Assembly: GCA_944380315.1 (NCBI GenBank)
Contig: CALWHG010000071.1
Coordinates: 1 to 59,611 of the forward strand
DNA from: an uncultured Lachnospiraceae bacterium
Lineage (GTDB): Bacteria; Bacillota; Clostridia; Lachnospirales; Lachnospiraceae
Length of the DNA stretch: 59,611 nucleotides
Direction of reading: 5' to 3'
Shown: in pieces, positions 26,957 to 42,527 of the stretch
Position numbering within the stretch: the stretch's first letter is position 1
How the letters are laid out: each line of letters starts with the position of its first letter
Translations under genes and position numbers: made by a program
Notes under the pieces: model-generated
Told to the model about the DNA's origin: nothing
Database searches by the model: none
What the model saw: only the letters and a program-made list of their open reading frames with translations

Positions 26957-29900
26957 AAACATAGGCAACGCTGTAGGAGCATTAGATAATATAATTGGCA
27001 AAAGAGGAAATAAGGCAGACGATGCTCGATTAGAGGCGGCAACGTTATTAGAGGGCCTTGATCCGGCAATATCAAAGCTTATTTTTGATACGTCAGAGTT
27101 ATCAAAAAAGCAAAAGGCCAATTTTCTTGATACGGTGCAGTCCAGCGAAGCACACGAACAACTTACTAAAACTCTTACTACCACTTCCGCTGCCACAGTT
27201 ACTTACGGTGGGGTTCTTGAAGGCCTCAAGATACGTGCACTTCAGTTAGTCCAGACGATCAAGAGTCTTGTTACTGCTCTGATGGGTAATCCTTATGCTA
27301 TGGCAGCCGTAGGCGTTGCTGCCCTCGGCACAGCCATGTATGCTCTCATCAAACATCAGGAGCGTGTTCGCGAAGAAATATCCGCTGCGGCCGATGAGGC
27401 GGTAAGCAGGATAGACGAGATCAAGTCCGCCACTACTGAGATGGCTGACGTTGTTAAGAATGCTTCGTCCAGCTTTGCAGAATTGTCCAAGGGCGTTGAT
27501 ATGCTTACGGGCGAAAACCTGTATCTGGATAATGAGGATTACCAAGAGTTCCTGAGTATCAGTAATCAGATTGCAGACCTCTTCCCTACTCTGCCGCGCG
27601 TATACGATGCGAATGGCAATGCCATAGTAAACCTTGGCACAGATGCAGAGTCAGTGGCGGCAAGCCTGAATGAACTGTATGAGCAGCAAAAACGAATTAA
27701 TGATCTTGAGATAGTCGACGAACTGCCGGCGATATTCAAAGAGGCACAGGCAAGCTCCAGAGAATATGCACTCAGCATACTGGATCTTGAGAAAGAGTAT
27801 GAAGCTCTTAAGAAAGAGCAGGAATACTATACCGGCGGCGGGTTCCAGAAGGATGTGGACGAGATTCTTGGTCGGTTCCACGGATTGCCGGATAATGAGG
27901 CTGAGCTTGGATTCTCGATCAATATCATGGATGAGGCCGAGTATAAGAAAGAACTCGACCGCATAACTAAGACGCTTAAGAGCTTGGATGTTGATTTTGA
28001 CTATGAGGAATTGCCGTCCATAGATGAGTCATTCGTAGCTACGTTTACTATTAGCGACGATGAACTCGACACTGCAATGGAGCATAACGCTGATGCGGTT
28101 CAAGCAGTAATTAATGACGTGACGGCTCAGACCAACAAGGCGTATGAAGCACTTGAGGTCGAGCGTCGTAAGCAAGAAGCGACATGGAACCAGTTCGCAG
28201 CAAACCTTTCCTCTGTACTTAATGTCGAGCTACAGTCGTATGCTATGGAAGATCAGGCGCAGAACGCTGTCCGCTCGATGGTCGGAAATATCAACTGGCA
28301 GGAACTGGTTGATGAGGGAATAATCTCTACCGGTGAAAAGGGCTTTGACCAGGCTATGGATTATATCCGAGATCATGCGATACGCCTTGTCAATGCAATG
28401 CCGCAGGAGATATCAGCTGCTTTGCAGAATAAGCTCGACTTTGAGTCCGGCAAAATAGACTACGATGAGTATAAAGAAACGGCACAGCAATTCCTTGATA
28501 TATTTGCCGAGGGATTTGATGAGGCCGACTATAATGACCTTGAAGATATACTGAGTAGTAAGCTTGCCGAAGCCTACGAAGATATCTTTGAGAAGGCCGC
28601 TGATGAGGCTTCTTATGATAAGCTGCTCGCCTTTATGGAAGAAAACGCCATAGATACTGCCGGCGAGATTGAAAAACTTAGTGTGGCACTTGGCGACGGC
28701 ACTCTCTCGGCCGAGGAAATGCAGGCTGCTCTATCAGCGTATGCAAATGACAATGCCATTGATCTGCTTAGTTCTAAAGTACAGACTCTTACTGATCGCT
28801 TCGCTACTTATAAAGAAGTGCTTGATACGGTCGAGACTGCACAGGATGAACTGAGTAAGTCAGGAGTCCTGACCGAAGAGACTGCGGCCATCCTCCAGGG
28901 TGAGTTTGGAAATTTGGATAAGATCCTAAAACTTACGACTCGTGGCTGGGAGCTTAATACAGAGGCTATAGATCACTACAATGAGCAGCAGCAAGCTGTT
29001 GTTCAAGGAAATATACTTTCTCAATTAAGCGCTCTGAAAGATAGACTCATCGACGTGGACCGTGAAATGGCCAACCTTTCCGGCGACGAGACGATGATGA
29101 CTGCTCTGCGAAATGAGCGTGATGATATAGAGGCCGAGATCCGGTCGTTGCTGAATCTACAGGCAGAAATCAACAATCTCTCTTCTACCTATAATCAATT
29201 CATCAATTCGTTTAGTGAAGAAGACGATTGGGCGAATTATGATACTATAGTCGGAAAGCTCGAAGAAGTTAAGGATCTGGCGAATAACGGAGACTGGGCA
29301 GATAATTCCATAAGAACATTTATAGAGTATATCTCTGGAATCGATGCATCGGATCTCATGGGTGATGACCTGAGAAATGCATATGCCGATGCAATGGCTC
29401 AGGCTGAGAAATATTTTACCACAGGCACAGAGGGAATAAGACACTTTGTGGCCGCAGCAGAAGAAGCTGGTTATGTTATCGACGGCGAATTCAAACTGGA
29501 TAATATTCCAAAGATGGCCGAAGATCTCGGCATGACCACTGATGCACTAACTGATATATTAAACGCAGTTCAGAGGACCGGAGACGTTAAAATTGAATTT
29601 AGCAACTGGTTCCCTGGTGCGAATGATATCAATACGATTCTGGACAACTATAAAACGCTGGCGGCATTAGTCCAGACCATAGAGGCCAGCGGTGGAGTCG
29701 TTGATCAGGAGACTCAAAGTGCACTGGACTTCTATCAGGAACAGCTGTATAGTCTCAAGGAGCTTCAAGATCAGATAAAGAGCTTTGATGCTGCTGGGCC
29801 TACTGGGCAGACTGAAGAATGGGCTCAAAGGATTCAGGAGAGCCTCGATTACTATGGTGTTTCCAAAGAGCAGATGCTCGAAGTAAATGTCAATGTAAAC

Positions 29901-32900
29901 TCCGAAGAACTCCAAAATCAGGTTGCTCAGTTTGCGGAAGAAAATGACACCTATGTACAGGTAGGCATGGATCCTGACTCAACCCTTTCTAAAGACATTG
30001 ATGACGTTGTAAGCGAAATTAGGACCATTCCTATTACGCTTAGTTCAACAAGTGTGGCAAAGGTTCGGAGTGAACTTGACACTCTGTTTAAGCCTCGCAA
30101 TGTTTCCATTGGGAATATCAATTCTTCGCTATCGGCCAATAGAAATACAAGCATATTCAGGATCCCTCAAAGTAGGTGGCGTGGATCTGCGGCATTTAAT
30201 TCTGGAAAGATAACGGCGGGATATCGCGGTCCGGCTCTTGTTGGCGAGCTTGGCAAAGAGCTTCTTGTTCGTAATGGCGTGGCCATCCCGGTCGGTGTTG
30301 GTGGCGCCGAGATGATCAATGTCCAAAAGGATGATATCATCTTCAACCATCGGCAGACTGCGGAGCTTGAGAAGAACGGACGGATCAATTCCAGAGGGAA
30401 GGCTTTCGCCGAAGGTACGGGCGCCTTTGCAAATGGAATTCAAAGCGGCAGGCAGTCGGGTAATGCTGGAAATATCCCCGTATCCAATGTAGATATAGAG
30501 CGCGCCGAAAAAGCCGCTGAAGAAGCAGCGAAGGCCGCCAAGAAAGCATCCGAAGCGTCTAAGAGTGTCAAGGCAGACTCTGAGGAGACCTATGATTATT
30601 TCGAGAGAATGATCGAGGTCCTGGAAAATGGCGTCGACTATATAGATTCTGTACTCGAAAACATCAATGGTTCTATGGCCAAGAATCCACTTATAGACAA
30701 ACAGATGTCTTATGTCAAGGCGGAGATCGCAGGTTATACTGAGGCCATTGGCATGTATCAAGGCCTTGCGGACCAGGCTTTGGCCAAACTACCCGGCGAA
30801 ATACAGGAGAAGATCCGCGCCGGAGCTGTTGAAGTAGCCAAGTATATGTCTGAAGGCGATGAGTCTATACTTACTGCCATAGATGAATATACTCAGTGGG
30901 ACGATAAAGTCCAGGATTGTCGCAAGAGCATCGAGGAGCAAACCACAGCCCTTCGGAAAATGGCAAAGCTCAAGTTCGACAATATTATCGACGACTTCGA
31001 GAAACTGAACGATATATACTCTGGGTCAAACGACTTGCTGGATGGACAGATAGGGCTTCTCGAAGAGGCTGGACTTGAGGTCGGTGAGGAATTTTACCGG
31101 GCGCAGGCCACCAACTCCGAAAGACTTCTGGCAACTCTGGAGCAGCAACGATCTGCCGCAGTCAAGGCCTTTGAACAGGCGCTAACGTCTGGCGATATTC
31201 GTAAAGGTGATGAGCAATATACGGAAATGTTGTCCACTCTTATGGATATCGACTCGGCGATACTGGACGCAAAGACTGACGTAGAAAAGTTCAATAATGC
31301 CGTCCTGCAATTAAAGTGGGATAGGTTTGATAGTCTGCAGGAGCAGTTTCAAAATATAGACGACGAACTCAGTAATTTATACGAATTGTTCTCAGCGGAG
31401 ACTGATATCAAGGTGTCTGATCGCCACGGGACTTGGACCGAGGAAGCCCTTGCGCAGCTTGGCCTGCTTTCACAGCAATATGAGGTGAATAAGCTTCAGG
31501 CTGAACAGTATGCCGAGGCACAACGGGATCTCGAACAGATGTACCGTGCTGGTCAATATACTACTACTGAATATATCGAGAAGCTCGCAGAGCTTAAAAA
31601 TGGTCAGTGGGACGCCATAGATGCTTATCGTGCTGCCGAAGACGCCATCATGCAACTTAACGAGGCGCGCGTCGAGGAAGAATGCGAAGCTATTCAGGAA
31701 GAAATAGATGCGTTCAAAGAACTTACCGATGCCCAGATAGAAGCACTTGAGGCGGCCGAGGATCTACACGATTACCAAGTATCTATCAGTGAAAAGACCA
31801 AAGATATTGCAGACATACAGCGTCAGCTCGCAGCCATGCAAAATGATGATACTGCGGCAACTGTGGCGAAGCGTAAACGCCTTGAAGAGGAACTGGCGGA
31901 AGCGCAAAAGGATCTTGCTGAGTTTGAAAGGGATCACAGAGTCGAAGAACAGACCAATGCTCTTAACGATCAGTATGAGGAATACGAGAAACGCAGAGAA
32001 GAAGAAATGGAAGCCCTGCGTAAGACTCTTGAAGACCGAGAAAACATCATTCTTCAGTCCATGAATCAGGTCAAGGATAACGCTACCGTTATCGGTGATC
32101 AGATAGATCTCATGGCTAAAGAGCACGGTCTCAATATCTCCGACACTATCGTAGATTCCTGGAATTCCGGCAGCAACGCCATAGCGGGGTACAATGATCA
32201 ACTTACGGCAAGCACAAGCAATTTTATCAGTCAGTTGAATGAGGTCGAAGAAGCTGCAAAGAGGCTACAGGATCGTGCGGATCAAGTTTCTATGTCTCTG
32301 TCACATATGTTTACGCACAATGCTCAGTCCATAGTGAATGAGATCCAAGCAGGTTACGATTCTATTAAAGATGTTGATACCTCGGCGGATGTCTGGGTTG
32401 ATAAGAATGTCCCGAGTGGTAGTTCTTCTGGCGGCAGCGGCTCTACTACTATTGTTGGTAATATCAAGGATAGTTTCCAGGACGCTGTGACAGAGGCGGT
32501 GGATCAACTTGGTAAATATACATTCAGTCGGCCCGAGCCAGGGCTGGTAGAAGCATATGATGGATCCGGCAATCTTGTCGGCACATATACGTTGGATGAG
32601 GCCAAGAAGCTGTTCGGTTCCATGTTGAAATTCGCTAAGGGTGGCATCGTTGAGGATACTAAGTCTCCTCTTAACCAGATTGCCAAGTCCCTCGGCGAAG
32701 ATACTCTCGTTGCGGCGAAGGTCGGTGAGGGAATACTTACGCCGGGCCAAACGAAAGCCATGCTCGCGCTCGCACCGATCCTTGAACAATTCAAGTCTTC
32801 ATTTGAGGATCTGCGTCGGAATGACTCGGGCAATGCCCCGTCCTCTTCTTCTCGCCCTTCTATGACTATCAACGTGGAGAAAATGGTCAACGTCGAAGGC

Positions 32901-33005
32901 AATGTAGACGATAACAATGTAGATAAGATAGCTAAAGTAGCCAAATCTGAGATAAATAAATTCATGACTAAATGGAATAGAGATTTAAAGTATAACGGAT
33001 ATTAA
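26957..33005 (+). CDS. Tape measure protein, exon 2
   Basis: The frame is open from 26928 to TAA 33003-33005; by the preferred splice model exon 2 begins at 26957. It starts with the end of the tape-measure core and a membrane segment (NPYAMAAVGVAALGTAMYAL), then over 1,500 residues of helical coiled coil. A Gly/Ser linker (SGGSGSTT, about 32424) and a conserved C-terminal module (FAKGGIVEDTKSPLNQIAKS ... VAAKVGEGILTPGQTKAML) complete it. A beta/Gly region (RWRGSAAFNSGKITAGYRGP, about 30175) interrupts the coils. With exon 1 the protein would be about 3,333 aa. It sets tail length and is ejected with DNA. Confidence 0.85.
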
Positions 33006-33120: not shown

Positions 33121-33945
33121 ATGTGGTTGAATGTATTCGGGAGCGATATGTATTACGGTGGATTCCGGCTGTCCGATTTTGGACTTATGCTCTCTACTTT
33201 CTCATTAGAGGATGAAGAAGAGCTTGGCATGGATTATGAGGTTATTGAAGAGTTTGTCGGACACAATCCGGTTCCAATGTATCTTGGATCAGAATATACC
33301 AATAAACTCGAACTCACCACTACGATTATAAAGAGTCAATGCGGGCGGCGAAACTATGATGCTATGTTCACGGAGCATGAATGTCGCGAAGTTCTTCGGC
33401 AACTTACAGGGTTCCGTGGCTATAGAGATGTTCAGATCATTGCTGGAGATGCCAGCATGGATGAACTATATCATTTCCGGGCAAGAACTCGGAGCGTTTC
33501 GTATCTAAAGTACGGAGACGGTGTTGTTGGCATAATTCTGAATATGGAATGTGACTCGCAGTTCGCCTGGAGTCCGGAGCATGAATATAAGTATGAAATG
33601 AAAGCCGGAACGGTATATACTCTGATCAATATGTCGGATGATCTATATAACTACCTTTTGCCGACGGTCATCATTACAACGCCAACGGCCATAAATTCTT
33701 GGACATTCACTAATCTCACTGACGATAACTGGGAATCTACCATAAAGAATATAAAGGCGAATGAAGTCATTACAATGGATTCTGGTCGTTCAATGCTTAC
33801 TACATCTACACCGGATAGATATATGTTAAATGACTTCAATATGCACTTTATAAGACTGGTGGCGGGCCTGAATCAGTTTAAGACTGACCATGACTGCTCT
33901 CTCACTTTTAGGTATAGTCTACCGAGAAAGGTGGGCGTTGTATGA
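33121..33945 (+). CDS. Distal tail protein (Dit)
   Basis: 274 aa. The N-terminus (MYYGGFRLSDFGLMLSTFSL) and the central belt-like beta region (YLGSEYTNKLELTTTIIKSQ; LTGFRGYRDVQII) match the N-terminal ring domain of siphovirus distal tail proteins. A C-terminal galectin-like half begins near residue 165. It sits between tape measure and Tal genes, the invariant place for Dit, and forms the hub joining tube and tip. ATG 33121 follows AAGGTGGTG. It overlaps the Tal gene by 4 bases. Confidence 0.78.
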   Translation: MWLNVFGSDMYYGGFRLSDFGLMLSTFSLEDEEELGMDYEVIEEFVGHNPVPMYLGSEYTNKLELTTTIIKSQCGRRNYDAMFTEHECREVLRQLTGFRGYRDVQIIAGDASMDELYHFRARTRSVSYLKYGDGVVGIILNMECDSQFAWSPEHEYKYEMKAGTVYTLINMSDDLYNYLLPTVIITTPTAINSWTFTNLTDDNWESTIKNIKANEVITMDSGRSMLTTSTPDRYMLNDFNMHFIRLVAGLNQFKTDHDCSLTFRYSLPRKVGVV

Positions 33946-36900
33946 GAAGTATCATATATGGGCCGAATAAATATGACAATGTGACTCCGCCAGAGTTCGT
34001 GCTGTGTAAGGCCAGCGGCGATCGAATCGGAGTCATAAGATGTGCTGAAAAGTCGGGAACGTTTAAATTCAACGCGTACAATGAGATCTCCTTTTCTACC
34101 TATATGAATATAGATAATGAAAGGAATCCATACTATGACAGCGTCGTTGAAATGCAACACGTCGAATTACCGACCATCGGGCGATATGTAATCAGCGATG
34201 TACAGGTGCGCTCCGAGGCGACTGACTTTGAGTACAAAGAGGTAACGGCTTTATCGGAAGAAGTTTTGCTTGCTCAGAAATATATAGAGCTTTTCTATAT
34301 AAATATGGGTACAGTAGAAAGTATTGATGGAGTGTGTTTGTACGATCAGGCAAATCCAGATAAGAGCCTCATGCATCTCGTACTGGAAAAGTGTCCCGAC
34401 TGGACGGTTGGTCATATAGATCATAGCCTTATAACCATACAGCGAAGCTTTCAGATCGACCGGCAAGACGTATATTCGTTTCTTGTCACAAATGTCGCGG
34501 AAGCATTCGGCTGCGTTTTCATATTCAATTCGATCAATCATACCATAGATATTTACCCCGAGGACATCGTTGGCAGCGAGACAAATATTATCATATCTTA
34601 TGATAACCTTGCTCTGTCTACAGATATTTCTGGGAACATAGACGACATAAAAACCTGTCTTACCATTACCGGGGCAGATGATCTTAATGTCCGTGAGGTA
34701 AATATGGGATATGATAGGATCTATAATATGGATTATTTTCATTCTCTCGACTATATGTCCCAAGGTCTGTATGATGCATACACGGCCTGGATGAAGAAAT
34801 GGAACGACAATGTAGATACTTATGAAGATCTTATAACGGAGTATCAAGGCTATTATGAGGATCTCCACGAAATCACCGAGGAACGTCGACCAGAAGATCC
34901 CGATAGCACAGATTGGAAACTTTACGGTCTCAATCCACTCAAAGAGAAGCTTGCCGCATATGAATCTCAACAGGCTGTTCTGATCAAGGCAGGTTATGGA
35001 AATGTGGACAGCGAGTTTTATGAGAGCATGTATCTGCCGGTCTATAATCAGATTCAGGCAATAAATTCTCAAATCACTGTCGTACAGGCTGAAATAGATG
35101 GAATAACCGCAAAGCAAAATGCGCTTAGCGAGCAGATGGCGGCTATCATCGATGATCTGGCGATGCAGAAGAATTTTACTTCGGCACAGCTCATGGAGCT
35201 TACAAAGTTTATCCGCGAAGAAGAACTTACGTCTGACAATTATATTGTTACTGACACTATGACAGAATCCGAGCGTATGGACATGTTGAAGGATATGCTT
35301 GCATACGGTCAGAAAGAACTTGCCAAGGTGGCACAGCCCTCTCTCACTTTCTCATTAAATATGGCTAATATCTTTGCCAATAAAGCCTTCAACAAAGTGT
35401 CTGACGGGTTTGAACCGGGAAACTATATACATGTTATCATTCGAGATGATTATATAGTAAAAACCAGGTTGTTGACGATGAGTGTTAACTTCCTGGATCC
35501 GAACGACTTTTCGGCGACATTCTCCAATATGTTCAAGGTCAAAGGCCAGCAACTATACGAAGAAATCTCCGAAGCGCTTAAACTCGCCCAAGATGCGGCG
35601 ACATCGGTATCGTTTAATGCGTCGTATTGGGATAAGGCCAATAAAGAAGCTACTAATATTGGTAAGATGCTCGCAGAAGGACTTCTTGGTGCGGGACAGG
35701 TGATCCATACATCCAGCGCAGACGTAACCATGGATGACAGGGGCATGTTTATCAAAGCCACAGAAGATGCGCAATATCCGGATGACGGGGTATTTATTGG
35801 TGGTGGGCAGATATTGTTTTCGGATGACGACTTCAAGACTGTCCGTACAGCTCTCGGCCGGGTTAAATATACAAAGCAAGGAACCACATATAATGACTTC
35901 GGCCTTTTAGCGGACTTTGTGATTGCCGGTTATATTGCCGGTTCATATATAGAAGGTAATACATTTGATAACGGTAATGGTACGTTTCATGTTGATCCGA
36001 ATGGAAATCTGACTGCAACAAATGCTACTGTCAAGGGAAAGATCCAGGCCGATTCAGGATATATCGGCGGAGCGAATGGCTGGACTATAGTCACCGGAGC
36101 CATCTATTCTGGTAATAAATCGTCTGTAGACAGTACTGCTGACGGCACATATCTTGGGGCTGGTACGGGTATCAATATAGGCAATGCCGACAAGTATCTC
36201 AAGTATAAGAATGGACAGCTTACGGTCAAAGGAACTATCGAAGCTGACTCTGGGCATCTTGGTGGAACAAACGGTTGGACTATTGCCAGTGGGAAGATCT
36301 ATTCTGGTACCAAGGATTCTTACGGAAAGAATGTCAATGGAGTATATCTTGGCACGGATGGCATAGATATCGGAAGCTCTACTCGATATATGCGCTATAA
36401 AGACGGCAATCTGAATGTCAGTGCATCCATAAGTGGGTCAACGATCACGGGAAGCCACATCTCTGGCGGTAGCATTCAAGGCGGGCAAGGTATGTTTGAG
36501 GTGAACGATGAGCGTGTGTACATCGGCGGATTTGAGTGTCGATATGCCTGGGGACGTGACATACTTCAAAGTTCTGATGGGCAATGTGGGATTTCTGCTG
36601 ATCCTCCCGGTGGCGGAAAGTTCTGGATATGGGCCGGTTATGCCAGTGCGGATGACTATGATTTTGCTGTAAATGATGGTGGACAGTGTTGGGCCAGGGA
36701 CTTTGGACTCGTGGGTCATGACTGGACTTTGCGAGCCTGGGTGCAACGAGTAGAACAGGCGTTGAAAGATCTTGGCGAATCTATTGGATGTTCATCTGGC
36801 GATAGCTGTGATGACTGGTGTGACGATTCATGCGATTCTTGCGACGGTGGCAGTGGTTGTCTTTGTGATGGTGACTGCGACGGTTCCGGCTGTCTCTGTG

Positions 36901-36953
36901 ACGGTGATACAGGATGTGGATATGATGGCGGCTGCGGCCCCGGTACGGAATAA
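33942..36953 (+). CDS. Tail-associated (Tal) endopeptidase-type tail protein with Cys-rich C-terminus
   Basis: 1,003 aa. The first ~370 residues match the prophage endopeptidase tail hub (gp27-like; YYDSVVEMQHVELPTIGRYV), followed by helical coils (about 300-450) and a second hub-like part (FEPGNYIHVIIRDDYIVKTR). Beta-fibre repeats follow, including two copies of a unit like ADSG-GG-NGWTI-G-IYSG (about 36048 and 36243). The final ~55 residues (codons 36789-36950) hold 12 cysteines among Asp, Gly and Ser, with GSGCLCDGD repeated twice. The gene for a radical-SAM/SPASM enzyme starts 17 bases downstream, suggesting this tail is its substrate (inference). Disulfide or metal binding without modification is the alternative. 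Confidence 0.8.
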   Translation: MRSIIYGPNKYDNVTPPEFVLCKASGDRIGVIRCAEKSGTFKFNAYNEISFSTYMNIDNERNPYYDSVVEMQHVELPTIGRYVISDVQVRSEATDFEYKEVTALSEEVLLAQKYIELFYINMGTVESIDGVCLYDQANPDKSLMHLVLEKCPDWTVGHIDHSLITIQRSFQIDRQDVYSFLVTNVAEAFGCVFIFNSINHTIDIYPEDIVGSETNIIISYDNLALSTDISGNIDDIKTCLTITGADDLNVREVNMGYDRIYNMDYFHSLDYMSQGLYDAYTAWMKKWNDNVDTYEDLITEYQGYYEDLHEITEERRPEDPDSTDWKLYGLNPLKEKLAAYESQQAVLIKAGYGNVDSEFYESMYLPVYNQIQAINSQITVVQAEIDGITAKQNALSEQMAAIIDDLAMQKNFTSAQLMELTKFIREEELTSDNYIVTDTMTESERMDMLKDMLAYGQKELAKVAQPSLTFSLNMANIFANKAFNKVSDGFEPGNYIHVIIRDDYIVKTRLLTMSVNFLDPNDFSATFSNMFKVKGQQLYEEISEALKLAQDAATSVSFNASYWDKANKEATNIGKMLAEGLLGAGQVIHTSSADVTMDDRGMFIKATEDAQYPDDGVFIGGGQILFSDDDFKTVRTALGRVKYTKQGTTYNDFGLLADFVIAGYIAGSYIEGNTFDNGNGTFHVDPNGNLTATNATVKGKIQADSGYIGGANGWTIVTGAIYSGNKSSVDSTADGTYLGAGTGINIGNADKYLKYKNGQLTVKGTIEADSGHLGGTNGWTIASGKIYSGTKDSYGKNVNGVYLGTDGIDIGSSTRYMRYKDGNLNVSASISGSTITGSHISGGSIQGGQGMFEVNDERVYIGGFECRYAWGRDILQSSDGQCGISADPPGGGKFWIWAGYASADDYDFAVNDGGQCWARDFGLVGHDWTLRAWVQRVEQALKDLGESIGCSSGDSCDDWCDDSCDSCDGGSGCLCDGDCDGSGCLCDGDTGCGYDGGCGPGTE
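36789..36950 (+). other. Cys/Asp/Gly-rich C-terminal segment, candidate radical-SAM substrate
   Basis: Twelve cysteine codons in 54, in patterns such as CDDWCDDSCDSC and two GSGCLCDGD repeats, ending CGYDGGCGPGTE. Spacing resembles Cys-rich core peptides modified to thioethers by SPASM maturases, but here the core would be fused to a 950-residue virion protein instead of a short leader. Confidence 0.6.
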
Positions 36954-36970
36954 TAAGAATAAGGAGGACT

Positions 36971-38311
36971 ATGGACAATATATTGGCAGGACACCAAGGC
37001 GTATGGAATATCTTGGGCCGTCAAACATATAATGGTAACTTAAAATATAAATACTCACTATATACTCTCTCTTTGGAAGTTTCAGAGGGATATTTGCTAT
37101 ATAACGATCTGACAAAGCAGCTCATTTTATTGGATAAGGCTCAGTATGAGACGCCGACAGATGGTATGGTTAAGTATCTTGTAGAGCAATGGTTTATGAC
37201 GCCAGAATATACGGATGATTACGGAATATTCTACACGGTATATCAGGCATATAAGACGGTGAATAAGCGTAAGACTTATGGCAAAATAAATCTCTGTACG
37301 ATATTTCCGACCACTGGATGCAATGCTCAATGTCCTTACTGTTATGAAAAAGGCATGGAGTCAAAGAATATGTCCGAACAGGTTGCGGATGATCTGGTGG
37401 CTTGGTTAAAGACTCGCACGGCAAGTACTTTGCATGTTAAATGGTTTGGTGGCGAACCGTTGTGTAATAAGCCTATCATTGACCGGATCTGTCAACGGCT
37501 TCAGGTGGAAAACATAGACTTCTATTCTTCTATCACTACCAATGGATTACTGTTTGAAGAGGATGAAGTAGACAAGTATATAAACCAGTGGCATCTGCGG
37601 CAGGCGCAAGTTACGATTGATGGGACACATGATGTATATATCGCTACGAAGAATTTTAAGTCTTTTACTGGTGATGCATATGAGAAAGTGCTGTCAAATG
37701 TTGAAATGCTGTCCAAGGCGGGGGTCCGTGTAAACATACGCACTCATATCACCGGCGAAAATAAGCAGGATATCTTGGCGCTTGTTGATGAGCTTACGGA
37801 GCGATACAAGAATAATTCGCGCGTAATCGTCTATACTCATCCCCTGTATGAGGGATGCGGAGAGATAGAAACATTCTCAGACGAGGAGCGAGCCTTGGTA
37901 TATCGAAACTACAGAGAAGTATCGGCTGTCATTAATGCGACCGGTGCTGGGCCAAGGTACTCTATTGAAAGATTTCGGACTACTCATTGCATGGCGGATG
38001 ACGGGCGTAGTATGTGCGTCAATCCTGATGGCGGTTTGAGTCTTTGCGAACATCACCCGTGGGACGAATTATATGGAAACATATATGATGACAATTATGA
38101 TAAAGCCATCTTGGATAGTTGGCTTGAGCCTGCAATAGATTCAGTGGAATGTATCAAGTGTTGTCTGCGGCCCTCATGTCTTAGACTTGCGAAATGCCCG
38201 GTGGATGAGATATGTACGGCACAGACTATTGAGTATAAATTGAATAAGACGTACCTGGCTATGACAAATGCATATAGTAGATACAAACAGAATACGGAGA
38301 AAATCGAATAA
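36971..38311 (+). CDS. Radical SAM/SPASM peptide maturase
   Basis: 446 aa, ATG with AAGGAGG upstream. Residues about 25-100 look like a PqqD-type recognition domain (YSLYTLSLEVSEGYLLYNDL). The radical-SAM barrel carries CxxxCxxC in TTGCNAQCPYCYEKG (Cys 117, 121, 124), then the GGEP motif (VKWFGGEPLCN) and ITTNGLLF. The SPASM region (about 340-420) has CMADDGRSMCVNPDGGLSLC and CIKCCLRPSCLRLAKCP, enough cysteines for auxiliary [4Fe-4S] clusters. Such enzymes form thioether or C-C links in ribosomal peptides, or activate sulfatases; no sulfatase is present. It sits between two tail genes in one operon, so its target is probably a virion protein. Confidence 0.88.
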   Translation: MDNILAGHQGVWNILGRQTYNGNLKYKYSLYTLSLEVSEGYLLYNDLTKQLILLDKAQYETPTDGMVKYLVEQWFMTPEYTDDYGIFYTVYQAYKTVNKRKTYGKINLCTIFPTTGCNAQCPYCYEKGMESKNMSEQVADDLVAWLKTRTASTLHVKWFGGEPLCNKPIIDRICQRLQVENIDFYSSITTNGLLFEEDEVDKYINQWHLRQAQVTIDGTHDVYIATKNFKSFTGDAYEKVLSNVEMLSKAGVRVNIRTHITGENKQDILALVDELTERYKNNSRVIVYTHPLYEGCGEIETFSDEERALVYRNYREVSAVINATGAGPRYSIERFRTTHCMADDGRSMCVNPDGGLSLCEHHPWDELYGNIYDDNYDKAILDSWLEPAIDSVECIKCCLRPSCLRLAKCPVDEICTAQTIEYKLNKTYLAMTNAYSRYKQNTEKIE

Positions 38312-38531: not shown

Positions 38532-39887
38532 ATGGCTGCAACTATTACTCCGCTTATCCAGTCTTATACCGTAGACTTTGCGTCTAATAATAATTTTTTG
38601 TTCCTGAAGACGGTTCAAGGTGACGGACATAGTACAAGGTACGCCGATATATCTCTCATGAACTTCGGGCAACCGTATACGTTTGATCAATCCGCCGTAA
38701 ACATCGTCATCAGAGGAACTAAACCGGACGGTACGCAAATCTTCAATACCTGTGAGGCTCTGGATGATCACACGATAAGGTTTGAGATAACTCAGCAGAT
38801 GTCTGCCGTCGCTGGGAAAGTCGACTGTGAGATATCCATTATGTCAAACAGCGAGAACAAGACGCTTACATCATTTCCGTTCATGATTATCGTAGATCCA
38901 AATGCGGCTGACGTTAGCTACATTGTTTCTTCCGATGAGTTCACTTTGCTTATTGAAAAGATCAATGCCGCTACTTCTTCTACCGAAGACGCGATTAAGG
39001 CTACTGAGGATATGCGAGAACTTGAATCTGATGTCAAAGCCGCTGAGGAGATCCGGCGGGAGAATGAGGATACAAGGCAAAGCCAAGAGGACGCCAGAGT
39101 CAAGGCCGAAGAGGCCAGGACTAAAGCAGAGGACGCCAGAGAAAGTGCGGAGACGATCCGAAATAGCAATGAAGATACTCGCAACTCCAACGAAGACACT
39201 CGGGTTAAGGCAGAATCTGCAAGAGTGACGGCGGAAGATTCCAGGGTGAAAGCGGAAGAAGCTCGGGTAAACGCTGAAAATACCCGTGTTGAACAAGAGG
39301 ATGCTCGCAAATCTGCCGAAAACCAACGTGTATCCGCAGAGAAGGCCAGAGAATCCAATGAGTCCACAAGACAGGAACAAGAATCTACTCGGCAATCACA
39401 GGAGTCTGCGCGCCAGAAGGCAGAGGAGGGTCGTGCTTCGGCAGAGTCTGTTCGTGTTTCTCAGGAAACAGCCCGAAAAAATGCGGAGAATACCCGTCAG
39501 ACGAATGAAGGAACAAGAGAGTCTAATGAGGCGATCCGTCAAAAGAACGAGCAAGACAGGGTAGCCAGTGAGCAGGCACGTGTTGAGGCGATGCAGCAGT
39601 TTGACGAAGATCGAGAAGAGCTTCACGACTATGCGATTATGGCCCAGTCATATGCCACAGGCGGAACTGGAACTCGCCCGGGAGAAGATACTGACAATGC
39701 CGGATATTACTACCAAATGGCAAAAGAAGCTGCCGAAGAGGCAGTTAACGCTATACCTATCATTGCGCCGGAGTTTCGATTGGATATTGAAACCATGGAG
39801 CTTATGCAGGTTGGGGTAGGCAAGAACATTACTTTTACTCTCGATGAGAATCTCAATTTGATTTTCTCATATGAACTAATGAATTAA
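38532..39887 (+). CDS. BppU-like baseplate/fibre protein with long heptad-repeat stalk
   Basis: 451 aa. Residues 1-~130 are a BppU-type N-terminal beta domain (YTVDFASNNNFLFLKTVQGD; NFGQPYTFDQSAVNIVIRG), which anchors receptor-binding proteins to the tail tip. Then about 26 heptads of the form x-x-R-x-x-x-E (DARVKAE EARTKAE ...) build a stalk of about 180 residues. The C-terminus holds EFRLDIETMELMQVG, a motif shared with the small protein at 43608, and a short beta end. AAAGGGG precedes the ATG. It probably forms a trimeric spacer carrying the fibre encoded next. Confidence 0.75.
   Translation: MAATITPLIQSYTVDFASNNNFLFLKTVQGDGHSTRYADISLMNFGQPYTFDQSAVNIVIRGTKPDGTQIFNTCEALDDHTIRFEITQQMSAVAGKVDCEISIMSNSENKTLTSFPFMIIVDPNAADVSYIVSSDEFTLLIEKINAATSSTEDAIKATEDMRELESDVKAAEEIRRENEDTRQSQEDARVKAEEARTKAEDARESAETIRNSNEDTRNSNEDTRVKAESARVTAEDSRVKAEEARVNAENTRVEQEDARKSAENQRVSAEKARESNESTRQEQESTRQSQESARQKAEEGRASAESVRVSQETARKNAENTRQTNEGTRESNEAIRQKNEQDRVASEQARVEAMQQFDEDREELHDYAIMAQSYATGGTGTRPGEDTDNAGYYYQMAKEAAEEAVNAIPIIAPEFRLDIETMELMQVGVGKNITFTLDENLNLIFSYELMN
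39049..39594 (+). repeat. Coding 21-bp heptad repeats
   Basis: About 26 consecutive seven-residue units with Arg at position 3 and Glu at 7. At DNA level the units are diverged (GCC/GAG-rich, many synonymous differences), so the repeat is held by protein selection rather than being a recent tandem expansion. Confidence 0.75.
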
Positions 39888-41525: not shown

Positions 41526-42527
41526 GTGAGTGGCACTGTTAATGAAATCAGAGACAAGGTTTTAGCTATATTGTCGGTCAATTTTTCGGCAGATCAGTTA
41601 GCAATGGTCGATTCGGCCGTCGTTGAATCGCTGCAAGATTACAAAATTGAACGCGAAGAGACACTTCCGGCAGTTTCTATCGGGCCGGAACGCGAAGTCG
41701 TCGAATTTCTGGCCCGCAAAAAGAGCAAAGGACTTAAAGAAGGTACTCTTGTGCAGTATACGCATGTATTGCGTGCCTTTTGTCTTTGTGTGAGAAAGCC
41801 GATCCATGAGATTACTGAATGGGATGTAATAAAGTTTTTAGATGACTACGAGAGGTATCGTGGTGTCGGGAAGCGCCGGAAAGACAGCATGCGCGTAATA
41901 CTCAATGGATTCTTTAGATATATGGCAGACTCTGGTCGGGTTTCGGTAAATCCCATGCTGACGATCGAACCAATCAAATACCGGAAGAATGTGCGTAATC
42001 CTTTGAGTGGAATCGAACTTGAAAGGCTTCGTAGAGTTTGCCAGACACCGAAGGAGCGGGCTCTGGTAGACTTCTTCTTTGCGACTGGTTGTCGTGTAAG
42101 CGAAGTTGTGGGAATTCGCAAGGACGATATCGACTATCTAAATCGTCGAGTAAAGGTAACAGGTAAAGGAGATAAGGAACGGTATGTGTTCCTGAACGAT
42201 GCTGCTATCCTATCTCTTGATGAGTATTTTAAATCGAGAGACGACCGACGGGAGGCGGTGTTTGTTTCGGATCGCCGGCCCCATCAGCCGCTCAAAAAGA
42301 ATGCTATTGAGCGTATATTCCGTATCCTTGGTGAACGAGCGGGAATCACTCGAAATGTTTTCCCCCATCTCATCCGTCATACTACTGCTACGTATTTGTA
42401 TCGACACGGTATGCGGCTTGAGGTTTTATCGGTAGTCCTCGGCCATGATTCGCCTGACACTACCAAGATTTACGCCAAAGATGATCCTGCACTGGTGCAG
42501 AATGCATACATGATGTCTGCGGCATAA
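41526..42527 (+). CDS. Tyrosine recombinase (XerC/D-like), candidate cassette recombinase
   Basis: 333 aa from GTG 41526 (AAGGAGGAAG upstream). The N-terminal ~90 residues are unassigned, then a SAM-like core-binding domain (about 60-150: EGTLVQYTHVLRAFCLCVRK). The catalytic domain is complete: Arg 190 (ATGCRVSEVVGIR), the beta-hairpin Lys (TGKGDKERYVFL), HLIRHTTATYL (His 281, Arg 284), LGHDSPDTTKIYA (His 307) and nucleophile Tyr 316. It sits within the late fibre/lysis region beside the exchangeable fibre gene, not near lysogeny genes. That favours DNA inversion or cassette shuffling over, or in addition to, prophage integration. Own terminators follow. Confidence 0.88.
   Translation: MSGTVNEIRDKVLAILSVNFSADQLAMVDSAVVESLQDYKIEREETLPAVSIGPEREVVEFLARKKSKGLKEGTLVQYTHVLRAFCLCVRKPIHEITEWDVIKFLDDYERYRGVGKRRKDSMRVILNGFFRYMADSGRVSVNPMLTIEPIKYRKNVRNPLSGIELERLRRVCQTPKERALVDFFFATGCRVSEVVGIRKDDIDYLNRRVKVTGKGDKERYVFLNDAAILSLDEYFKSRDDRREAVFVSDRRPHQPLKKNAIERIFRILGERAGITRNVFPHLIRHTTATYLYRHGMRLEVLSVVLGHDSPDTTKIYAKDDPALVQNAYMMSAA

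Follow-up and report, generated by a model that had tools for sequence, protein, structure and literature searches.

A cysteine-rich tail on a phage tail-tip protein and its adjoining radical-SAM/SPASM enzyme: a candidate RiPP-type modification of a virion protein

The tail-tip protein and the enzyme beside it

The window analysed here comprises positions 1-59,611 of contig CALWHG010000071.1 (assembly GCA_944380315.1) from an uncultured Lachnospiraceae bacterium, and it carries a phage tail module in which the gene of a Tal-type tail-tip protein with a cysteine-rich C-terminus is followed, after 17 bases, by a gene for a radical S-adenosylmethionine (radical-SAM)/SPASM enzyme. The tail-tip protein, P0001 (1,003 amino acids; 33942..36953, forward strand, as are all tail-module features of the window given below), matches the minor tail protein family phrog_6211 with 165 bits, and the enzyme, P0002 (446 amino acids; 36971..38311), matches the Pfam Radical_SAM model with an E-value of 3e-19. 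The proposed substrate of the enzyme is the Cys-rich tail of P0001 (residues 950-1003; 36789..36950), which contains 12 cysteines and ends in CGPGTE. The module is ordered as a 1,956-amino-acid open reading frame (ORF), a Dit-type gene, P0001, P0002, a 66-amino-acid ORF (P0004) and a BppU-type gene. The Tal-type gene lies immediately 3′ of the Dit-type gene, as in siphophage tail tips, and the tape measure is assigned from position only.

The C-terminus of P0001 reads SIGCSSGDSCDDWCDDSCDSCDGGSGCLCDGDCDGSGCLCDGDTGCGYDGGCGPGTE. Its last 57 residues hold 12 of the 21 cysteines of the protein, together with 13 Asp and 15 Gly, and the remaining 946 residues hold 9 cysteines. The binomial chance of such clustering is approximately 3e-13, low enough to reject the idea that the tail arose by chance. 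When the last 57 residues of 53 window ORFs were compared (a greedy set of non-overlapping ORFs of at least 100 amino acids), P0002 ranked second to P0001, with 6 cysteines. Two GSGCLCDGD units, at 36849-36875 and 36882-36908, were the sole matches to a degenerate pattern in the host assembly. The initial annotation had described both this Asp/Gly-rich, Cys-rich tail with its two repeat units and the radical-SAM/SPASM gene downstream of it, and both descriptions were borne out.

The radical-SAM CX3CX2C motif of P0002, CNAQCPYC (residues 117-124; 37319..37342), has cysteines that are invariant in the alignments, and a GGEP motif is found at position 160. The SPASM part (residues 340-415; 37988..38215) contains seven conserved cysteines (340, 359, 394, 397, 403, 409, and 415), invariant across a 28-row alignment, the last motif being C-X2-C-X5-C-X5-C-X5-C. 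As read from the sequence, all cluster cysteines are present and the set is complete for a working radical-SAM/SPASM enzyme. The Pfam SPASM model matches six of the 28 aligned rows, P0002 not among them. A GGC at the last SPASM motif occurs in 8 of 11 generic homologues (alignment A2), versus none of the six rows of a narrower alignment (A3).

An AlphaFold2 model of P0002, built from the 28-row alignment, reached a predicted local distance difference test score of 91.0 and a predicted template modelling score of 0.87. In the model, the N-terminal part (residues 26-97; 37046..37261) consists of strands 32-37, 40-45, and 50-54, followed by helices 56-60, 64-72, and 83-97, the order of a RiPP (ribosomally synthesized and post-translationally modified peptide) recognition element (RRE). 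The closest folds in the PDB are those of CteB (5WHY, 5WGG; E 1e-18), followed by SuiB, anSME, and TigE, with SkfB also close, and CteB is the top sequence match as well (E 6e-25). The closest NCBIfam model is TIGR04463, with 122.7 bits against a cut-off of 525; lower scores were obtained for Clo7bot (105.9/600), CefB (87/600), PapB (84.2/340), and SCIFF (46.2/425), and with 49.9 bits against a cut-off of 453 the enzyme is not a member of quino_hemo_SAM. TIGR04463 and four other NCBIfam models match all 28 aligned relatives. P0002 also matches PHROG 1802, a phage radical SAM protein family (E 4e-26).

Co-occurrence of Cys tails and enzymes in related phages

Exact-seed scans with P0002 alone gave no confirmed relative in IMG/VR or the genome collection, those with P0001 gave none in IMG/VR, and a DNA pattern for the GCxCDGDCDG run had no IMG/VR match; relatives were reached solely through alignment queries. 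Alignment A2 retrieved at least 78 IMG/VR loci, and A3 retrieved 38 loci from IMG/VR and 526 from the genome collection, of which the best 80 were taken. A tree was built of 101 enzymes, comprising the window, L079, 19 IMG/VR loci (L147-L165), and the 80 genome loci, with 18 further A3 loci from IMG/VR omitted (L076, L083, L086, L166-L180). Twenty of the 101 enzymes (window, L147-L161, L181, L182, L183, and L194) are preceded directly by a phage-type protein with a Cys-rich C-terminus. Since L158/L159 and L151/L153 are near-copies, 18 of these rows are distinct. The partner and enzyme genes are separated by anything from a 4-base overlap to 81 bases, and the tails include CSSYSSCSSKTSCSSKTSCPDDTASGCSIKGCIALTCGPDDVK in L147, CCNGGGGCDDCDSYGCDDEDCPGYGGEGCIPESAPC...CGPGDGL in L150, and CTCDDYGSSCNCDSQACGPGDGL in L181. 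Within alignment A4, the enzymes of the Cys-tail set are 27-36% identical to P0002, the top identity to any tree row being 36% (L182). The four genome loci with a long Cys tail are labelled as Lachnospiraceae metagenome-assembled genomes. The partner of L148 is a stand-alone Cys-rich protein. The enzyme genes of L152 and L161, and the tail-protein gene of L152, contain in-frame TAG and require TAG to be read as glutamine, which suggests that these phages are TAG-recoded. Prior to the tree count, three loci scored automatically as tail-bearing were reassigned on reading: the upstream ORF encodes a further radical-SAM enzyme in L208 and L226 and has 4 cysteines only in L213.

Besides the window, a comparison of P0002 with 145 host relatives returned generic radical-SAM enzymes only (best by E-value, 32% identity over partial length), and 11 of their neighbourhoods read by eye contained no phage tail module. 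Matches in INPHARED were 20-35% identical; the pair was present in none of the six loci opened, and several of these resemble bacterial chromosome. Such a resemblance, from ORF reading only, was seen for L056 (MT835702.1) and similar MT83xxxx "Bacteriophage sp." faecal records.

Phylogenetic analysis placed the tail-associated enzymes together. In a quick tree of the 101 rows, the 20 Cys-tail rows and L079 form one group with a Shimodaira–Hasegawa-like approximate likelihood ratio test value of 91, and the Cys-tail label requires 2 changes, versus a mean of 18.4 for shuffled labels, with none of 500 shuffles as low. A careful tree was built from 50 rows: all 21 tail rows, plus 29 hand-picked from the remaining 80 so as to span the tree. 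It recovered a group of 19 Cys-tail rows and L079 at 94/99, slightly below the star limit and with the bootstrap not settled. L148 fell outside this group, beside the bacterial enzyme L207, whose upstream ORF is short and very Cys-rich, and 1% of the bootstrap trees had a branch that set all 21 tail rows apart from the rest. P0002 was placed with L152 and L161 in the careful tree (98/95) and with L181/L182 in the quick one, which leaves its closest neighbours uncertain. Both trees consistently put it in the tail-associated group.

As a background, among ORFs of at least 250 amino acids in L147-L260, with CX3CX2C-containing ORFs excluded, 5 of 506 others have at least 5 cysteines in their last 70 residues. 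The converse question is what follows a related tail protein that lacks the Cys tail. The domain preceding the Cys tail of P0001 (IGGF...ARDF) has four relatives outside the P0001 gene: L050 (P0006, from another prophage in this assembly), L061 and L063 (genome G839; the IMG/VR loci L066 and L068 were treated as the same as the G839 loci), and L067 (IMG/VR). All four stop shortly past the domain with a coiled-coil-like stretch and a GGG end and have no Cys tail. The next ORF is 106-200 amino acids long and is not a radical-SAM gene, and the enzyme-family profile had no match in the four stretches, that of L063 covering only about 300 bases downstream. For a broader reverse control, the N-terminal parts of two carrier families, tails removed, were used as queries A6 and A7 against IMG/VR. 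With 13 loci from the one query and the best 80 of 469 from the other, the sample came to 93 loci, 20 of which were unscorable because the protein or the downstream DNA was cut. In the 73 scorable loci, a Cys tail was found in two (L266 and L284), both with the enzyme within 1.5 kb, and the enzyme was found within 1.5 kb in none of the 71 without a Cys tail. Several of these 71, such as L275, L279, and L281, have Asp/Gly-rich ends without Cys. The tail and the enzyme are thus present or absent together in related phages, the check that the initial annotation had proposed. The case that it had named as damaging, an enzyme kept without a Cys-rich neighbour, was seen once in the 20-member enzyme group, in L079. 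The pairing is well supported as confirmed and conserved.

The tails are carried by different proteins. In a PHROG scan of 18 carriers (L152 and L161 excluded), with families set apart by PHROG match alone, eight fell into a phrog_1067/5555/1330 group, four matched phrog_18190 (three also the tail family phrog_6616), and two matched phrog_6211 (window and L181). The others were fibre-like pieces (L151 and L153), a phrog_13589 match (L157), and a protein with no match (L148). By these sequence matches, Cys tails are found on at least three different tail-protein families, and the tail looks like a portable end-piece. Unless tail and enzyme act together, it is difficult to see why such varied tail proteins should each time have an enzyme of one family encoded behind them.

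The 1,956-amino-acid ORF (27135..33005) occupies the tape-measure position upstream of Dit and Tal, an assignment from position and length only, and has no Pfam match. The Dit-type distal tail protein (274 amino acids; 33121..33945) matches DUF6558 (E 2e-31) and DUF6558_C (E 7e-24); its SPP1_Dit match (E 0.007) is under the cut-off of that model. P0004 (38311..38511), a possible accessory protein, overlaps the end of P0002 and matches no known family. ORFs of 50-61 amino acids overlap the enzyme end in the same manner in L147, L182, L183, and L194, giving five of 13 phage loci inspected. The next structural gene encodes the BppU-type baseplate upper protein (451 amino acids; 38532..39887; Pfam BppU_N, E 3e-9). 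Downstream of the tail module, an integrase-type recombinase (Pfam; 41526-42527) lies amid fibre-like ORFs, and a similar arrangement was seen by eye at L050:5851-6837 and L069:12904-13947. These may perhaps be fibre-switching cassettes; a search for repeats around the recombinase of the window found just two weak inverted pairs.

Proposed modification and alternative explanations

These findings point to a phage-encoded RiPP-type maturase whose target would be the Cys/Asp/Gly-rich C-terminal end of a tail-tip protein, and we consider it probable that a P0002-type maturase cross-links the P0001 tail in place. The tail protein would serve as its own leader, with P0002, made from the next gene, binding it, probably through the RRE-like N-terminal part. 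The radical cluster of P0002 would open S-adenosylmethionine, and the Cys sulphurs would be joined to neighbouring residues, most probably through ranthipeptide-like thioethers to the side chains of Asp or similar residues. This would give the tail protein a compact, redox-proof, and protease-resistant terminal knob. A cross-linked, acidic, Gly-rich knob on a tail-tip or fibre C-terminus could lie exposed close to one end of the particle; stability or surface binding would be its likeliest use. Hosts of the Lachnospiraceae type are anaerobes, which suits an oxygen-sensitive enzyme. The view put forward in the initial annotation, that a virion protein is the modified substrate, is well supported by the co-occurrence (19 of 20 in the enzyme group; 0/71 and 0/4 in the reverse direction). 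The two genes, their intact motifs, and their shared presence and absence across many phages are observed; the role of the tail as substrate, the type of bond, its presence in virions, and its use are inferred.

In a pool of 19 tails, from which the near-copy L159 was dropped and in which L148 and both L161 pieces were kept, Cys accounts for 19.5% of residues, Asp for 16.3%, Gly for 14.5%, and Ser for 11.1%. With the Cys positions fixed and the other residues shuffled, and 60 cells examined, Asp is in excess at positions +1 (58 vs 39.5) and +3 (51 vs 36.0) relative to Cys and in deficit at +2 (22 vs 34.6). According to passages of PMC9413430, PapB forms thioethers between Cys and the β-carbon of Asp and accepts Cys-Xn-Asp with n from 0 to 6. 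Passages of PMC8326336 describe QhpD as forming Cys-Asp/Glu thioethers within a protein that is not a RiPP, and CteB and SkfB as having an N-terminal RRE. The Asp spacing and the PapB and QhpD precedents, taken together, would make Cys-Asp thioethers the most likely product of P0002. Separately, it was observed that 10 of 21 Cys- or Ser-rich partners (window, L079, L147, L149, L150, L152, L158, L161, L181, and L183) have GP[GDM] within their last 12 residues, often as part of CGPGDGL or CGPG; this motif may serve in recognition or as a closing element.

A number of observations weigh against this interpretation. Nothing more than 37% identical to P0002 was found, so that the exact pair of the window is a singleton in the data searched. 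P0002 missed every NCBIfam cut-off considered and belongs to no named equivalog. Pfam matched no RRE or PqqD domain in its N-terminus, and the PqqD-like N-terminus claimed in the initial annotation is supported only indirectly, by the strand and helix order of the model. An unfiltered background of 629 ORFs contained 132 with at least 4 and 55 with at least 6 cysteines in the last 70 residues, although that set includes radical-SAM genes with Cys-rich SPASM ends. The two tail-bearing loci of the reverse control, L266 and L284, are contigs of L147 and L154 and hence not new positives, which leaves 0/71 as the informative figure; the A7 search, taking the best 80 of 469, missed known enzyme-bearing contigs and should be read as a sample and not as a full count. 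What the tails have in common is composition, with no motif that can be aligned. The Asp excess is modest considering how many cells were examined, and the automatic setting of tail limits worked badly in two cases, running too long for the window and too short for L149. L149 is also the weakest positive, with 5 cysteines in 70 residues, and the L161 partner is in two pieces, split by an additional stop. At L079:2525-3820 the same architecture and CGPGDGL end are found with Ser replacing nearly all Cys, beside an enzyme truncated by the contig end.

One possibility is that the enzyme modifies the Cys tail by another chemistry, such as Cys-to-α-carbon sactionine bonds, carbon-carbon links, epimerisation, or some other radical change. 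SuiB, anSME, SkfB, and TigE are likewise near P0002 in fold, and within the radical-SAM superfamily the fold does not determine the bond formed. However, the top match in both fold and sequence is CteB, a thioether enzyme, and Cys is the feature retained in nearly all of the otherwise divergent tails; we regard another chemistry as a minority prospect, albeit a serious one. It is unlikely that the tail is an unmodified disulphide or metal-binding knob and that the enzyme has a different target, such as P0004 or some other virion protein. Cys-rich tails could fold unaided, and in the window, L147, L182, L183, and L194 the enzyme gene has a small ORF behind it, but these small ORFs hold 0-1 cysteines and are missing from the eight other loci inspected, whereas the Cys tail is near-constant (19/20) and its absence is accompanied by absence of the enzyme (0/71).

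That the tail is a precursor, modified first and then cut off to give a free peptide such as a bacteriocin or signal, would fit with some related bacterial enzymes, which adjoin short peptides. Most carriers, however, match tail or other virion families, and Pfam found no peptide transporter or peptidase among 11 proteins scanned from P0002 to 48.9 kb, a scan that did not cover every ORF there; the earlier statement that no transporter or protease is nearby holds to that extent, and release of a peptide seems very improbable. Least credible of all is a chance neighbourhood, in which a cargo enzyme was inserted beside a coincidentally Cys-rich protein: the pair in the window would on its own be compatible with it, but 19 of the 20 enzymes in a diverged group share the pairing, which is seen on different tail-protein families, against a background of 5 in 506 ORFs.

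A wider class, and comparison with known systems

Enzymes related to P0002 also occur beside other kinds of Cys-rich products. A short ORF with at least 3 cysteines lies within 300 bases upstream in 42 of the 80 genome loci, under a loose rule that chance ORFs also pass; 34 have none and 4 have the long tail. The convincing short ORFs, in L195, L219, and L245 (and in L204 and L254, outside the rule), have a Lys/Glu-rich, leader-like start and an EP or KP motif. Enzyme relatives behind short Cys-containing ORFs, many of them leader-like, were noted in L195, L200, L204, L207, L219, L234, L240, L245, L252, and L254, in genomes labelled Lachnospiraceae, Oscillospiraceae, Clostridia, Atopobiaceae, Prevotella, or Bacteroidales, and possibly represent an uncharted RiPP family. 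In the phage group, in place of an adjoining short precursor, the Cys-rich partner is in most cases the C-terminal end of a longer protein (276-1,382 amino acids).

A second type of association was found among the IMG/VR matches listed for the A2 query. In 28 of 69 distinct radical-SAM loci, an ORF within 2 kb reaches 10 or more cysteines in 60 residues, and ORFs this rich in Cys make up 31 of 292 near the enzyme and 6 of 301 more than 4 kb away. L070 alone of the 28 belongs to the alignment built around P0002; 24 of them are L092, L093, L094, L096-L098, L100, L106, L107, L111, L114, L116, L120, L123, L125-L127, L129, L132, L136-L138, L140, and L143. The neighbours include extreme Cys repeat proteins, with 92 cysteines in 480 amino acids in L100 and 82 in 424 in L127, and a 1,370-amino-acid ORF in L116 that ends in CQSxC repeats; CTGTCTG and CTCTCT repeats also occur. 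Eight of 10 such proteins scanned match phrog_6085. We lean, by a modest degree, to the broader view that widespread phages use their own tail proteins as RiPP precursors, with radical-SAM/SPASM thioethers placed in mobile Cys modules and a second, larger class acting on repeat proteins of up to 92 cysteines.

RiPP chemistry is familiar from small peptides and a few enzymes. Were the proposal true, it would serve virus-particle building, and virions would carry radical-made, redox-proof covalent tips, a new class of post-translational modification for phage tails. Phage radical-SAM genes so far annotated as such alone would gain a function, peptide cross-linking would gain natural substrates fused to large proteins, and the result would bear on tail-tip stability in phages of anaerobic bacteria. 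Searches of an open-access library (bioRxiv preprints not covered) yielded no description of phage radical-SAM enzymes paired with Cys-rich virion proteins, a weak form of absence, and there is a real chance that this is a new class of phage biology.

Among known systems, the proposed one differs in its substrate, which would be a virion protein. The CteB/SCIFF maturases of ranthipeptides (5WGG, 5WHY) resemble P0002 in combining radical-SAM and SPASM parts with an N-terminal RRE-type order, which in P0002 is predicted by the model, and in having a Cys-rich substrate in the adjoining gene. Their substrate is a short free precursor, whereas that of the phage enzyme would be the C-terminal tail of a virion protein, and P0002 falls far below the SCIFF cut-off (46.2 of 425 bits). 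PapB, the freyrasin maturase, acts on a Cys/Asp-rich core with many spacings tolerated, so that by analogy a diverged tail could still be processed; no regular CX3D repeat was seen in the phage tails, and the PapB score is 84.2 of 340 bits. TIGR04463 (rSAM_vs_C_rich) is the top NCBIfam match of P0002, yet at 122.7 of 525 bits P0002 is not a member. QhpD, as described in PMC8326336, provides the precedent of radical-SAM thioethers placed in a protein, although its substrate is part of a bacterial enzyme and the P0002 score is 49.9 of 453 bits. PHROG 1802 resembles P0002 by match and carries a domain name only. PHROG 6085, which has no assigned role, takes in Cys-rich proteins encoded next to other radical-SAM genes of phages; those seen here are repeat proteins of up to 92 cysteines, unlike the Cys tails borne by Tal proteins.

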